DNA from: Pseudomonas sp. GV071
GTDB lineage: Bacteria > Pseudomonadota > Gammaproteobacteria > Pseudomonadales > Pseudomonadaceae
NCBI RefSeq assembly: GCF_003050835.1
Contig: NZ_QAOJ01000002.1
Span: 1 to 64,000, forward strand
Length of the DNA stretch: 64,000 nucleotides
Direction: 5' to 3'
The notes beneath the pieces were generated by a model, which was not told the origin of the DNA, ran no database searches, and saw only the letters and a program-made list of their open reading frames with translations. Shown here in pieces: positions 86 to 45,985 of this stretch (its first letter is position 1; each line of letters begins with the position of its first letter). The position numbers and the translations under genes are program-made.

Positions 86-212
86 AGGGGACCCGGAGCG
101 CAGCGCAGGGCCCAGGTAGGGGCAAGCCCTTTTGGTTTCTTTTGTGGCGACTGACAAAAGAAACTCGCGCGTAAGGCGCGAAACAAAACGCTCAGCGCAC
201 GCGGTCACCTAG
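86..212. repeat. Dispersed structured repeat, copy 1 (partial)
   Basis: This copy shares a core with 33,080-33,210 and 45,840-45,960. It holds an imperfect hairpin (92-99 with 103-110 around a GCA loop), an 11-bp perfect stem (135-145 with 154-164, 8-nt loop) and a 5-bp stem CGCGC-GTAAG-GCGCG (166-180). Stem sequences differ between copies while pairing is kept. The 5' half found in the other two copies is missing here. Confidence 0.75.
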
Positions 213-231
213 ACAAAAGAGCAAAGCAAAA

Positions 232-270
232 CCCTCTCCCCAGCCCTCTCCCGCAAGCGGGCAGAGGGGG
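232..270. repeat. CT-rich palindrome (CCCTCTCCCGC family)
   Basis: The core CCCTCTCCCGC-AAG-CGGGCAGAGGG forms a hairpin. The same family recurs near 6,752, 16,389, 22,195, 24,262 and 27,064. Apart from repeats and the fdhA terminator, nothing gene-like is seen in positions 1-332. Confidence 0.7.
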
Positions 271-300
271 CCAATCACCGCCCCCCCGCAGCACCGCACA

Positions 301-326
301 CAAAAAAGGCAGCCCGTAGGCTGCCC
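301..326 (-). terminator. Rho-independent terminator of fdhA
   Basis: GGCAGCC (308-314) pairs with GGCTGCC (319-325) around a 4-nt loop. On the minus strand a run of T residues follows the stem. It lies just past the fdhA stop, so it probably ends the glyA-sox-purU-fdhA transcript. Confidence 0.8.
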
Positions 327-332
327 CTTCAT

Positions 333-1532
333 TCACGCCGCACTAAACGTCTTGTGCGGATCAATCACAAACTTCTTCGGCACCCCGGCATCGAACTCCC
401 CATACCCACGCGGCGCGTCGTCCAGACTGATCACCTGCACCCCCACCACCTCGGCAATATTGATCCGATCCCACATGATCGCCTGCATCAACTGCCGGTT
501 GTACTTCATGGTCGGCGTCTGCCCGGTATGGAAACTGTGCGACTTCGCCCAGCCCAACCCAAAACGAATACTCAGGCTGCCCATCTTCGCCGCCTGATCA
601 ATCGCACCCGGGTCTTCGGTCACATACAACCCCGGAATGCCGATCTTGCCCGCCACCCGCACCACACCCATCAACGAGTTGAGTACGGTCGCCGGCGCTT
701 CATGCTGCGCCCCGGCATGGCCATGACCGCGAGCCTCAAACCCCACCGCATCGACCGCACAATCCACTTCCGGCTCACCCAGCAGCGCAGCAATCTGCTC
801 ATGCAACGGCGTGTCCGTAGACAGGTCGGCAATCTCAAACCCCTGCGCCTTGGCATGGGCCAAACGCACCGGGTTGACGTCGCCGATGATCACCACCGCA
901 GCACCCAGCAAACGTGCCGACGCCGCAGCCGCCAAACCTACCGGCCCGGCACCGGCCACGTACACCGTGCTACCGGGACCAACGCCAGCCGTCACCGCAC
1001 CGTGGTAGCCGGTGGGCAGAATGTCCGACAGGCAAGTCAGGTCGCGGATCTTCTCCATCGCCTTGTCACGGTCCGGCAGTTTCAACAGGTTGAAGTCGGC
1101 ATACGGCACCAGCACGTATTCCGCCTGGCCGCCGACCCAGTCGCCCATGTCGACATAGCCATAAGCACCGCCCGGGCGGGCTGGGTTTACGGTCAGGCAC
1201 ACACCGGTGTGTTGCTCCTTGCACGAACGGCAACGCCCGCACGCGACGTTGAACGGCACCGACACCAGATCACCGATCTTCAGGTGCTCGACATCACTGC
1301 CCTTCTCAATGACCTCACCGGTGATTTCATGGCCGAGCACCAGCCCGACCTGCGCAGTGGTACGGCCACGAACCATGTGCTGGTCGGAGCCGCAGATATT
1401 GGTGGATACCACTTTGAGGATGACCCCGTGCTCGATCTTGCGCCCGCGCGGGTCCTGCATTTTCGGATAGTCGATCTTCTGAACTTCGACCTTACCGGCG
1501 CCGAGATAAACGACGCCACGATTACCAGACAT
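333..1532 (-). CDS. fdhA: Glutathione-independent formaldehyde dehydrogenase FdhA
   Basis: FdhA oxidises formaldehyde to formate with NAD, without added glutathione, in the cytoplasm. The 399-residue protein is a zinc-dependent medium-chain dehydrogenase. Cys47 (in NICGSD) and His68 (GHE) are likely catalytic zinc ligands, Cys98, Cys101, Cys104 and Cys112 match the structural zinc lobe, and VAGAGPVGLAA is the Rossmann NAD site. It is the last gene of the glyA-soxBDAG-purU-fdhA run. This fits its job of removing formaldehyde released when methyl groups are oxidised. A terminator follows the stop. The order matches the P. aeruginosa sarcosine locus. Confidence 0.95.
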   Translation of the reverse strand: MSGNRGVVYLGAGKVEVQKIDYPKMQDPRGRKIEHGVILKVVSTNICGSDQHMVRGRTTAQVGLVLGHEITGEVIEKGSDVEHLKIGDLVSVPFNVACGRCRSCKEQHTGVCLTVNPARPGGAYGYVDMGDWVGGQAEYVLVPYADFNLLKLPDRDKAMEKIRDLTCLSDILPTGYHGAVTAGVGPGSTVYVAGAGPVGLAAAASARLLGAAVVIIGDVNPVRLAHAKAQGFEIADLSTDTPLHEQIAALLGEPEVDCAVDAVGFEARGHGHAGAQHEAPATVLNSLMGVVRVAGKIGIPGLYVTEDPGAIDQAAKMGSLSIRFGLGWAKSHSFHTGQTPTMKYNRQLMQAIMWDRINIAEVVGVQVISLDDAPRGYGEFDAGVPKKFVIDPHKTFSAA

Positions 1533-43812: not shown

Positions 43813-43908
43813 GTAGGTTGGGTTGAGCACAGCGAAGCCCAACGGGCAGACCGATAAACGCCGGCCTTTGGCCGGCCTGTTGGGCTTCCTTCGTCAACCC
43901 AACCTACG
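43813..43908. repeat. Imperfect inverted repeat between betB and betA
   Basis: GTAGGTTGGGTTGAGCACAG and an inverted partner ending TCAACCCAACCTACG flank the short palindrome CCGGCCTTTGGCCGG. It is related to the element at 41,477 and fills most of the betB-betA gap. Confidence 0.75.
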
Positions 43909-43949
43909 CCTCTCCCACATAGTTTTTCAGTTCTGATCCAGGTACAGAA

Positions 43950-45632
43950 ATGAACACAGAATTCGATTACATCATCGTCGGTGCCGGCTCGGCCGGTAAC
44001 ACCCTGGCCACCCGCCTGACCGAAGATGCCAACGTGACCGTGTTGCTGCTGGAGGCCGGCGGCCCGGACTATCGCCTGGATTTCCGCACCCAGATGCCCG
44101 CCGCCCTGGCCTTCCCGCTACAAGGCCGACGCTACAACTGGGCCTACGAAACCGACCCCGAGCCGCACATGAACAACCGCCGCATGGAATGTGGGCGCGG
44201 CAAGGGCCTGGGCGGCTCCTCGTTGATCAATGGCATGTGCTACATCCGCGGCAACGCCCTGGACTACGACGGCTGGGCGCAAACCCCGGGCCTGGAAGAC
44301 TGGAGCTACCTCGATTGCCTGCCGTATTTTCGCAAGGCGGAAACCCGCGACATCGGCCCCAATGACTACCACGGCGGCGACGGCCCGGTCAGCGTGACCA
44401 CCCCCAAAGCCGGCAATAATCCGCTGTTCAAGGCCATGGTCGAGGCCGGCGTGCAGGCCGGCTACCCGCGTACAGAGGATCTCAACGGTTACCAGCAAGA
44501 AGGCTTCGGCCCGATGGACCGCACCGTCACCCCGCAAGGCCGGCGCTCCAGCACCGCCCGTGGTTACCTCGACCAGGCCCGCAAACGGCCGAACCTGACC
44601 ATCGTCACCCATGCCCTCACCGACCGCGTGCTGTTCGAAGGCAAACACGCCGTCGGCGTCGCCTACCTGAAAGGCACCAGCTCGATTCCGGTGGAGGCCA
44701 TGGCCCGCCGCGAAGTGTTGGTGTGCTCCGGCGCCATCGCTTCACCAGCGTTGCTGCAACGCTCCGGCGTCGGCCCGGCAGAACTGCTGAAAAAACTGCG
44801 CATTCCACTGGTGCATGACCTGCCCGGCGTTGGCGAAAACCTCCAGGACCACCTGGAGATGTACCTGCAATACGCCTGCACCCAACCGGTGTCGCTGTAC
44901 CCGTCGCTGCTGTGGTGGAACCAGCCGCCGATTGGCGCGAAATGGCTGTTCCTCGGCAAAGGCATCGGCGCCAGCAACCAGTTCGAAGCCGGCGGTTTTA
45001 TCCGCAGCCGTCCGGAATTCGAATGGCCGAATATCCAGTACCACTTCCTGCCGGTGGCGATTAACTACAACGGCAGCAACGGCGTGCAGGAACACGGCTT
45101 CCAGGCCCACGTCGGCTCCATGCGCTCACCGAGTCGCGGACGCATCCAGGTGAAATCCAAAGACCCGCGCCAGCACCCGAGCATCCTCTTCAACTACATG
45201 GCCACCGAACAGGACTGGCAAGAGTTCCGCGACGGCATCCGCCTGACCCGCGAGATCATGAACCAACCCGCCCTCGACCCCTTCCGCGGCCGCGAAATCA
45301 GCCCGGGCCCCGAGGTGCAGACCGACGAACAACTCGACCAATTCATCCGCGAACACGCCGAAACCGCCTTCCACCCCTCCTGCTCCTGCAAGATGGGGAG
45401 CGACGAAATGGCCGTAGTGGATGGCGAAGGTCGCGTACATGGCGTGCAAGGTTTGCGCGTGGTGGACGCCTCGATCATGCCGCTGATCACCACCGGCAAC
45501 CTCAACGCCCCGACCATCATGATCGCCGAGAAAATCGCCGACAAAATCCGCGGCCGGGCACCACTACCCAAAAGCACCGCACCGTATTACGTGGCCAACG
45601 GCGCACCGGTGAGAGTCAAACCACTGCGTTAA
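43950..45632 (+). CDS. betA: Choline dehydrogenase BetA
   Basis: BetA oxidises choline to betaine aldehyde, and can act on the aldehyde too. The 560-residue GMC-family flavoprotein begins with the FAD motif YIIVGAGSAGNTLATRL, followed by CGRGKGLGGSSLINGMCY. Near the end HPSCSCKMG and TTGNLNAPTIM contain the conserved histidine and asparagine of the active site. The enzyme is usually membrane-associated and passes electrons to the respiratory chain. It ends betIBA. The gap from betB (156 nt) is filled by a palindrome. Confidence 0.96.
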   Translation: MNTEFDYIIVGAGSAGNTLATRLTEDANVTVLLLEAGGPDYRLDFRTQMPAALAFPLQGRRYNWAYETDPEPHMNNRRMECGRGKGLGGSSLINGMCYIRGNALDYDGWAQTPGLEDWSYLDCLPYFRKAETRDIGPNDYHGGDGPVSVTTPKAGNNPLFKAMVEAGVQAGYPRTEDLNGYQQEGFGPMDRTVTPQGRRSSTARGYLDQARKRPNLTIVTHALTDRVLFEGKHAVGVAYLKGTSSIPVEAMARREVLVCSGAIASPALLQRSGVGPAELLKKLRIPLVHDLPGVGENLQDHLEMYLQYACTQPVSLYPSLLWWNQPPIGAKWLFLGKGIGASNQFEAGGFIRSRPEFEWPNIQYHFLPVAINYNGSNGVQEHGFQAHVGSMRSPSRGRIQVKSKDPRQHPSILFNYMATEQDWQEFRDGIRLTREIMNQPALDPFRGREISPGPEVQTDEQLDQFIREHAETAFHPSCSCKMGSDEMAVVDGEGRVHGVQGLRVVDASIMPLITTGNLNAPTIMIAEKIADKIRGRAPLPKSTAPYYVANGAPVRVKPLR

Positions 45633-45646
45633 GCAAAGATCAAAAG

Positions 45647-45672
45647 CATCGCGGCTGAAGCCGCTCTTACAG
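45647..45672. repeat. Single REP unit
   Basis: CATCGCGGCTGAAGCCGCTC occurs without an inverted partner. It is 15 nt after the betA stop. Confidence 0.8.
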
Positions 45673-45699
45673 GAGAACGCGCATCTGCTCTGGATCTGG

Positions 45700-45985
45700 C
45701 TTTTGATCTTGATCTACCCGCCCCTTGGGCGAAGGCCGAACGGAGTCGTTGCGCAAGGGGTCGAGCGGCCGGGAGCCGCGAGAGGCGCGAAGGGCCATGG
45801 ATGGCCCGTCGCGCCGGCCCCTGGAGCAACGACGGAGTGAGGGGACCTGAAGCGCAGCGTAAGGCCGAGGTAGGGGCAAGCCCTTTGGTTACTTTGCGGC
45901 GACTGGCAAAGTGACTCGCGCGTAAGGCGCGAAACAAAAACCTCCAGCACACGCGTCAATGAAGAAGAAAACCGTCCGCCAGTAG
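45700..45985. repeat. Dispersed structured repeat, copy 3 (full length)
   Basis: It matches copy 2 along about 280 nt. Stems: GGGCCAT-GG-ATGGCCC; an imperfect CCTGAAGC/GCGTAAGG (45,846-45,864); a 10-bp stem with one G-T pair (45,888-45,897 with 45,906-45,915) around GGCGACTG; and CGCGC-GTAAG-GCGCG. Compared with the other copies, paired bases change together. Confidence 0.8.

Follow-up and report, generated by a model that had tools for sequence, protein, structure and literature searches.

The 64,000-nucleotide stretch analysed here, hereafter the window (positions 1 to 64,000 of contig NZ_QAOJ01000002.1 of Pseudomonas sp. GV071, RefSeq assembly GCF_003050835.1), carries copies of a dispersed, apparently non-coding repeat. 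We tentatively interpret this repeat as a likely mobile element resembling a miniature inverted-repeat transposable element (MITE), in which a predicted triple-helix pseudoknot may act as single-stranded DNA (ssDNA) at the element's ends during spread. The main rival is the same fold acting as RNA, and we slightly prefer ssDNA. We also conclude that the copies are arms of a composite element, and the data support selection on the folded form, not on sequence alone. An original prediction made from the window sequence had described a three-copy repeat with compensatory changes in its hairpin stems. The three copies and every stem it listed are indeed present (three arms, all on the + strand, the first cut by the contig start; Table 1), and we refer to its second stem as P4, its main stem as S2 and its third stem as P5. 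Its observation was right but understated, as the predicted pseudoknot and triple helix, a structured 5' domain and head-to-head pairing of the arms had been overlooked and the assembly contains 49 copies, not three.

These 49 copies were recovered at E<=0.001 with a covariance model built from 28 arms (R1, 102 positions); a 25-base pattern allowing up to 3 mismatches found 46 sites in the assembly, and its reversed control found 0. R1 matched 36 of 57 genomes (34 of 36 within the genus and two of 21 outside it, one of those two weakly). Among the matches listed in a pattern scan of named genomes, most were in Pseudomonas and Stutzerimonas, with others in Atopomonas and Azotobacter. At E<=1e-4, a covariance model of the core alone (R2) matched 57 of the 299 genomes searched in the phylum; 30 belong to the same class and 27 to other classes, the latter matches being mostly from one family and mostly weaker. 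The core was also found six times by DNA similarity on the fusobacterial plasmid pILYOP01 (Ilyobacter polytropus), and a query taken from pILYOP01 itself gave nine core matches on that plasmid. Possible vehicles are one plasmid record and one weak 24-base phage match. The core pattern also occurs, rarely, on five viral contigs (L364-L368).

To assess conservation of the stems as base pairs, we used an alignment of 28 sequences (A2), one of 143 distinct rows from the best 150 of 163 matches (A3), and one of 87 distinct cores taken from a broader set of genomes (A6). A3 was drawn from 100 of 117 pattern loci, omitting L143-L157 as well as L059 and L060, which resemble coding sequence; parsing failed for 5 of 197 arms. 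In A2, A3 and A6, respectively, 89.0%, 94.0% and 97.8% of cells were paired, and changes on both sides were seen in 14 of 28, 16 of 25 and 12 of 14 pairs. The covariation score in A2 was 0.363, compared to 0.134 ± 0.012 in shuffled alignments (none of 500 reached the observed score) and no more than 0.101 in slid ones; the corresponding values were 0.337, 0.100 and <=0.075 in A3, and 0.476, 0.152 and <=0.112 in A6. As A3 and A6 had been fitted to structure-bearing covariance models, we therefore added a tree-aware null, in which the substitutions on each branch of a FastTree tree are dealt to random columns and column pairs are scored by a G-test with average product correction (APC), a re-implementation of the R-scape idea that is not R-scape itself. 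Under this null, 8 of 4,465 column pairs in A3 were significant (E<0.05), and all 8 were among the 24 given pairs (four in P4, three in S2, one in P5). In A6, 9 of 1,275 pairs were significant; 7 belong to S2 and the other 2 make up a base triple with it. The covariation proposed from three copies thus has statistical support in both larger alignments. The original prediction had also called the third stem constant; P5 is nearly invariant in this genome, and covariation of its closing pair is seen elsewhere (T-A 107, C-G 25 and G-C 7 among 143 arms). In the 5' domain, the consensus fold of 28 copies from this genome (A7) contains 33 pairs, 11 with changes on both sides.

The mismatches within the stems bear on which strand folds. 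G.T and T.G together occupy 123 of 2,295 S2 and P5 cells in A3, compared to a single A.C or C.A cell, and the 1,187 S2 cells of A6 contain 47 and 8, respectively. Because G.T far exceeds A.C, and a palindrome selected as a duplex would show equal counts, we conclude that one strand folds. Neither drift nor gene conversion alone, which had been raised as ways to explain the stem changes, predicts many G.T and almost no A.C cells.

Immediately 5' of S2, the arms contain AAG, then two bases (x1 and x2), then a T-rich strand, L1. We predict that L1 is a parallel Hoogsteen third strand on S2 (T over A-T, C over G-C) and that the short flanking bases pair with the S2 loop to form a further stem, S1, giving an H-type pseudoknot with a major-groove triple helix. 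L1 is a mixture of T and C in type-B arms and in other families, and matches the stem in parallel. In this geometry, L1 position -j lies opposite position -(j+4) of the S2 3' strand. This register (register 0) comes from the R2 alignment, which was built on stem pairs and not on matches between L1 and the stem; it was used instead of a free stem parser, which made the stems of many cores too long and found few triples in those cores. At register 0, 560 of 603 cells fit the predicted triples, compared to 360 at the best shifted register and 458 ± 8.5 (maximum 489 in 2,000) when L1 was shuffled among arms. Of 487 cells with A in the S2 purine strand, 471 have T in L1; of 101 with G, 86 have C; and of 5 with an inverted T, 3 have G. 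The 10 cells with an inverted C follow no rule. Of the natural bases, G is best suited to a third-strand position over T-A. The inverted-T case is present in genome G299 and was also recognised by eye in two Atopomonas arms, L056 and L073. At the informative, non-A positions we counted 89 matches, compared to 41.8 ± 4.3 with L1 shuffled (maximum of 2,000: 56). The sole pairs outside the stem that were significant under the tree-aware null in A6 join L1(-5) to both partners of S2 pair 9, with C over C-G in 47 of 87 rows and T over T-A in 29.

The lengths of these parts are also coupled. L1 equals S2 minus 5 in all 48 distinct cores without a loop insert, across stems of 10, 11 and 12 bp (32 cores with loop inserts are left out of this test). 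The S1 pair x2-y1, in which y1 is the loop base adjoining the stem, can form in 44 of 48 distinct cores, compared to a mean of 24.0 and a maximum of 34 after shuffling, and the G-C pair below x1-y2 is constant in A2. In two Ilyobacter left-type arms (L244 and L246), CTTGAT/ATCAAG is interlocked with the S2 palindrome without a linker and the two cannot both be fully formed; a switch between two folds is possible there.

Turning to the arrangement of the arms, neighbours within 1.5 kb among the 150 aligned arms (98 loci) were head-to-head in 46 of 51 cases, tandem in 5 and tail-to-tail in 0; in the Pseudomonas sp. GV071 genome the pairs were head-to-head (8), tail-to-tail (2) or tandem (1). Paired arms differ in stem sequence in the pairs examined from this genome and are only partly alike in 10 of 11 further pairs, several of which combine subtype A with subtype B. 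An exception is L280 (genome G239), where both cores are identical. Between the L280 arms (1283-4189) lie 2.8 kb that include a HEPN-domain gene and two small open reading frames (ORFs) that have no Pfam or PADLOC match; this content is possibly cargo between element ends. In Ilyobacter, six copies can be aligned as composites whose outer tails are alike (the left side of one is broken), and genome G243 contains 19 near-identical composites with shared outer tails (19 right tails and 14 landmark-found left tails were examined). As in MITEs, the Ilyobacter and G243 composites have terminal inverted repeats and no internal transposase gene. Direct repeats of 8 bp lie just outside the GGTTCTTCGCGG-type ends in 2 of the 19 G243 composites. 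At the site in genome G008 orthologous to that of copy 3 the element is absent (56 bp, compared to ~430 in the query); the relatives are too distant for exact element ends, and such sites report absence only. Element groups lie between convergent genes in 33 of 60 cases, compared to 40 of 216 control gaps, and between divergent genes in 4 of 60, compared to 51 of 216. These counts, made with a crude gene caller, leave out groups without a called gene on both sides.

From these data, we tentatively propose that unwinding of the region would allow one strand at each outer end, the one with its 3' end there, to fold, with S1 stacking on S2 and the T/C-rich L1 filling the S2 deep groove, and that the resulting knot would stall a polymerase or present the end to an enzyme supplied in trans. 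Stems and third strand would be compensated copy by copy because folding copies would keep spreading, and paired arms would differ in sequence plausibly because long perfect palindromes are unstable. In 131 of 170 hairpins the P4 loop is C-GNA-G, with all four bases present at N, and C-GNA-G is a stable DNA loop. TM_ECO, a bacterial triplex-forming repeat discussed below, occurs within 38 of 368 loci, element loci of this genome among them. Our slight preference for DNA over RNA rests on these P4 loops, on the resemblance to TM_ECO and on the lack of a reverse transcriptase domain in 9 of 10 genomes that carry the element.

Several observations weigh against this proposal. Plain folding energy is not outstanding and the + strand is not clearly favoured: RNA folding z-scores for copies 1-3 were -2.36, -2.10 and -1.38 on the + strand and -2.53, -3.46 and -1.18 on the - strand (with DNA parameters, + strand: -3.58, -4.88 and -1.31). 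Tree-aware support for the triple is limited to one L1 position, and the signal for x1-y2, the outer S1 pair, is weak (present in 37 of 48, compared to a mean of 32.7 after shuffling; 104 of 5,000 shuffles reach it). In Ilyobacter left-type arms, S1 is 6-7 bp with zero bases between the S1 and S2 3' strands, so the full pseudoknot cannot be accommodated there. Two pairs in this genome are tail-to-tail. Candidate target-site duplications are confined to 2 of the 19 G243 composites, and the flanks of all 19 share a mean of 7.7 bases, compared to 7.3 in mismatched flanks, without an excess of common flank words. Solo arms follow co-directional neighbour genes (9 of 11 and, at loci of this genome, 6 of 7; 15 of 18 in total); 10 of the 31 loci of this genome gave no neighbour call. 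Finally, no enzyme was found in searches of neighbour genes or for TnpB, Y1, reverse transcriptase and PF01610.

The orientation of solo arms would suit the same element and fold working as RNA, which we regard as a real possibility: a read-through transcript would enter the arm, and the pseudoknot would block 3' exonucleases or bind a protein, to the benefit of the element or of neighbouring genes. Confinement of G.T wobbles to one strand is consistent with this, and a zero-base link over a 5-bp foot would suit an A-form deep groove. Pyrimidine-motif triplexes occur in RNA (PMC4666352), and a plant retrotransposon is aided by an RNA triple helix (PMC12501189). However, between convergent genes the nearer arm would be antisense to the gene reading into it, GNRA tetraloops, a sign of RNA, make up only 13 of 188 P5 loops, and Rfam gave 0 matches at gathering score in the window, with sub-threshold ones around copy 2 only. 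We consider it improbable that the copies are passive repeats, spread by ordinary recombination or left by an extinct element, with stems that are relics of older subfamilies and a fold without a present role. The recurrent stem types in the genome do resemble subfamilies, the enzyme searches were negative, and the preference for convergent gaps would also be expected from selection against harm; yet covariation exceeds phylogeny in both A3 and A6, and across families the third strand is compensated and the length rule is kept.

Two further possibilities would assign the arms to known kinds of mobile element. It is very unlikely that they belong to a non-autonomous IS200/IS605-type or TnpB/IscB-linked element with a guide-RNA-like arm, which a structured arm with TTGATC units on its 5' side resembles, as the TnpB domain is absent from this genome and from 36 of 38 genomes searched, Y1 is absent from 5 of 30 core-bearing genomes of the same class (G117, G164, G179, G260 and G299), and the two arms fold on opposite strands. 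A Y1/RAYT transposase is therefore not required. Less credible again is an RNA-copied retroelement like a short interspersed nuclear element; the structured arm, 5' tandem units and RNA-compatible fold would agree with such an origin, but the reverse transcriptase domain PF00078 is absent from 9 of 10 element-bearing genomes, including G243, G260 and G299, which have near-identical copies.

The search for a mobilising enzyme covered other candidates. No recurrent partner gene was found beside the arms among ORFs of >=100 aa at the A3 loci; the largest cluster of neighbour ORFs runs through the arms and was taken as spurious, and the next are scattered families, as judged by eye. An ISL3 transposase was raised by the two 8-bp repeats beside GGTTCTTCGCGG-type ends and is disfavoured: PF01610 occurs once in each of 6 genomes, and at 4 of the 6 loci the proteins have histidine boxes, from which we take them to be fatty-acid desaturases. 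An autonomous or cargo-bearing version was sought in the pairs enclosing 2.6 kb (G260) and 2.8 kb (G239), which hold no transposase; the genes enclosed are of FemAB/GNAT type in G260, and the HEPN gene with small ORFs in G239.

Compared to described repeats, the 3' part of the arm is probably R178, matched by description and not by sequence. R178 is an intergenic repeat of 101 bp with internal 11-bp inverted repeats and a G+C content of about 62%, present in 18, 28 and 9 copies in P. fluorescens SBW25, Pf0-1 and Pf-5, respectively (Silby et al. 2009, PMC2718517). Similarly, R1 has 102 positions, S2 is 11 bp in 40 of 48 cores, and the element has tens of copies per genome. The available portion of that paper mentions neither covariation nor a pseudoknot, triple helix, 5' domain or head-to-head pairing for R178. 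The arms also agree in sequence, in the 560 of 603 cells at register 0, with a class IV intrastrand triplex (ITxF), a class defined by a single strand that runs from Hoogsteen to pyrimidine to purine segment, by parallel T.A-T and C.G-C triples and by a stem of 6-15 (Holder et al. 2015, PMC4666352); the available portion of that work describes no class IV family. It does describe TM_ECO, a G/C-rich class II purine motif of 37 nt that cannot form in RNA and occurs as inverted pairs of two subtypes. Like PIT/BoxC/TM_ECO, our element is a dispersed bacterial repeat whose single strand would form a triplex and whose arms form inverted two-subtype pairs; unlike it, the arms have a pyrimidine motif with S1, a 5-bp foot, a larger fold and third-strand covariation. 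Identity with TM_ECO/BoxC was rejected, as the purine motif CCCTCNCCC..GGGNGAGGG..GGGNGAGGG is lacking and the arms differ in both sequence and triplex class.

RNA pseudoknot and ENE triple helices are found in telomerase RNA, PAN, MALAT1 and plant transposable-element RNAs. In their predicted fold, the arms share with them the H-type geometry and an A-rich stem whose deep groove takes up a T-rich strand (U-rich in the RNAs), and a plant transposable-element RNA triple helix helps its transposon (PMC12501189); the arms differ in being bacterial and repeated, with C and G in the third strand, and no sequence relation is known. As in MITE, REP and BIME repeats of Pseudomonas, the copies are short, dispersed and intergenic, form inverted pairs and favour convergent gene ends, but the arms are ~225 nt with several helices, have no matching transposase and do not require RAYT-type Y1 genes. 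A REP moved by a RAYT (a Y1-moved palindrome of 20-40 nt) is ruled out by size and by the 5 of 30 core-bearing genomes without Y1. In the literature, mostly that openly accessible, we found no description of this family with a pseudoknot, triple helix or compensatory change.

Table 1. Parts of the three arms in the window.
Feature	Position	Strand	Details
Copy 1 arm	85..186	+	3' domain only, 5' domain missing at contig edge; R1 match 120.6 bits
Copy 1 P4 hairpin	92..110	+	CCCGGAGC-GCA-GCGCAGGG; stem 92-99/103-110, G.A pairs inside, GCA loop
Copy 1 S1 5' strand and L1	126..134	+	Predicted; S1 126-128 (partner 146-148), third strand L1 129-134 (CTTTTG)
Copy 1 main stem S2	135..164	+	135-145/154-164, loop 146-153 with CGACTG end
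Copy 1 P5 hairpin	165..181	+	TCGCGC-GTAAG-GCGCGA; stem 165-170/176-181
Copy 2 tandem units	32933..32964	+	TTGATC-type short units directly 5' of arm; by eye
Copy 2 arm	32965..33189	+
Copy 2 5' domain	32965..33092	+	Multi-helix; A7 consensus fold
Copy 2 P4 hairpin	33095..33113	+	GTTTTCAC-GCA-GTGAAAAC; stem 33095-33102/33106-33113
Copy 2 S1 5' strand and L1	33129..33137	+	Predicted; S1 33129-33131 (partner 33149-33151), L1 33132-33137 (TTTTTG)
Copy 2 main stem S2	33138..33167	+	33138-33148/33157-33167, with loop
Copy 2 P5 hairpin	33168..33184	+	Stem 33168-33173/33179-33184
Copy 3 arm	45717..45937	+
Copy 3 5' domain	45717..45843	+	A7 consensus fold
Copy 3 P4 hairpin	45846..45864	+	CCTGAAGC-GCA-GCGTAAGG; stem 45846-45853/45857-45864, contains G.A mismatches
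Copy 3 S1 5' strand and L1	45880..45887	+	Predicted; S1 45880-45882 (partner 45898-45900), L1 45883-45887 (CTTTG); L1 one base shorter, as is S2
Copy 3 main stem S2	45888..45915	+	45888-45897/45906-45915, 10 bp, with loop
Copy 3 P5 hairpin	45916..45932	+	Stem 45916-45921/45927-45932

The structured 5' domain is present in copies 2 and 3, and window bases 1-84, before copy 1, are a different sequence. That sequence recurs at five other contig ends of this assembly (L018, L025, L038, L039 and L040; six in all), and at all six it meets the arm at an identical point, between ...TTTAGCTTACA and AGGGG, as if an insertion sequence had entered at least six arms at one specific site between their 5' and 3' domains. 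Its closest match (85%) is on a P. antarctica plasmid, where it is unannotated. Tandem units of TTGATCTGGC type stand in varying numbers directly 5' of the arms at 32933-32964, at 45682-45716 and at many other copies in this genome. The window also contains a second, unrelated triplex-type repeat, BoxC/TM_ECO-like hairpins, with 15 matches on both strands at <=2 mismatches, compared to 0.08 expected (sites at 244-268, 6755-6854, 16396-16481, 22210-22233, 24263-24366 and 27077-27161, several being close pairs).

Proposals of intrastrand triplexes in bacterial repeats go back to 2000; in the available parts of the sources consulted, we encountered no agreed function for them and no evolutionary test of the fold. 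As natural copies of the present element vary enough for a triple helix to leave a covariation signal, the cellular relevance of such a fold becomes testable. More speculatively, and with considerable doubt, the element could represent a widespread class of transposons whose ends are read by an enzyme acting in trans as a folded strand, an H-type pseudoknot locked by a triple helix, and not as duplex; in that case a code in which the third strand has T opposite A-T, C opposite G-C and G opposite an inverted T-A might be readable from evolution across phyla. Our analysis probably joins a Pseudomonas repeat that has long been listed but left unexplained to a family across the gammaproteobacteria and beyond. 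It provides covariance models that allow this family to be annotated, and it indicates a likely mobile element whose ends are unusual and for which no enzyme is known.

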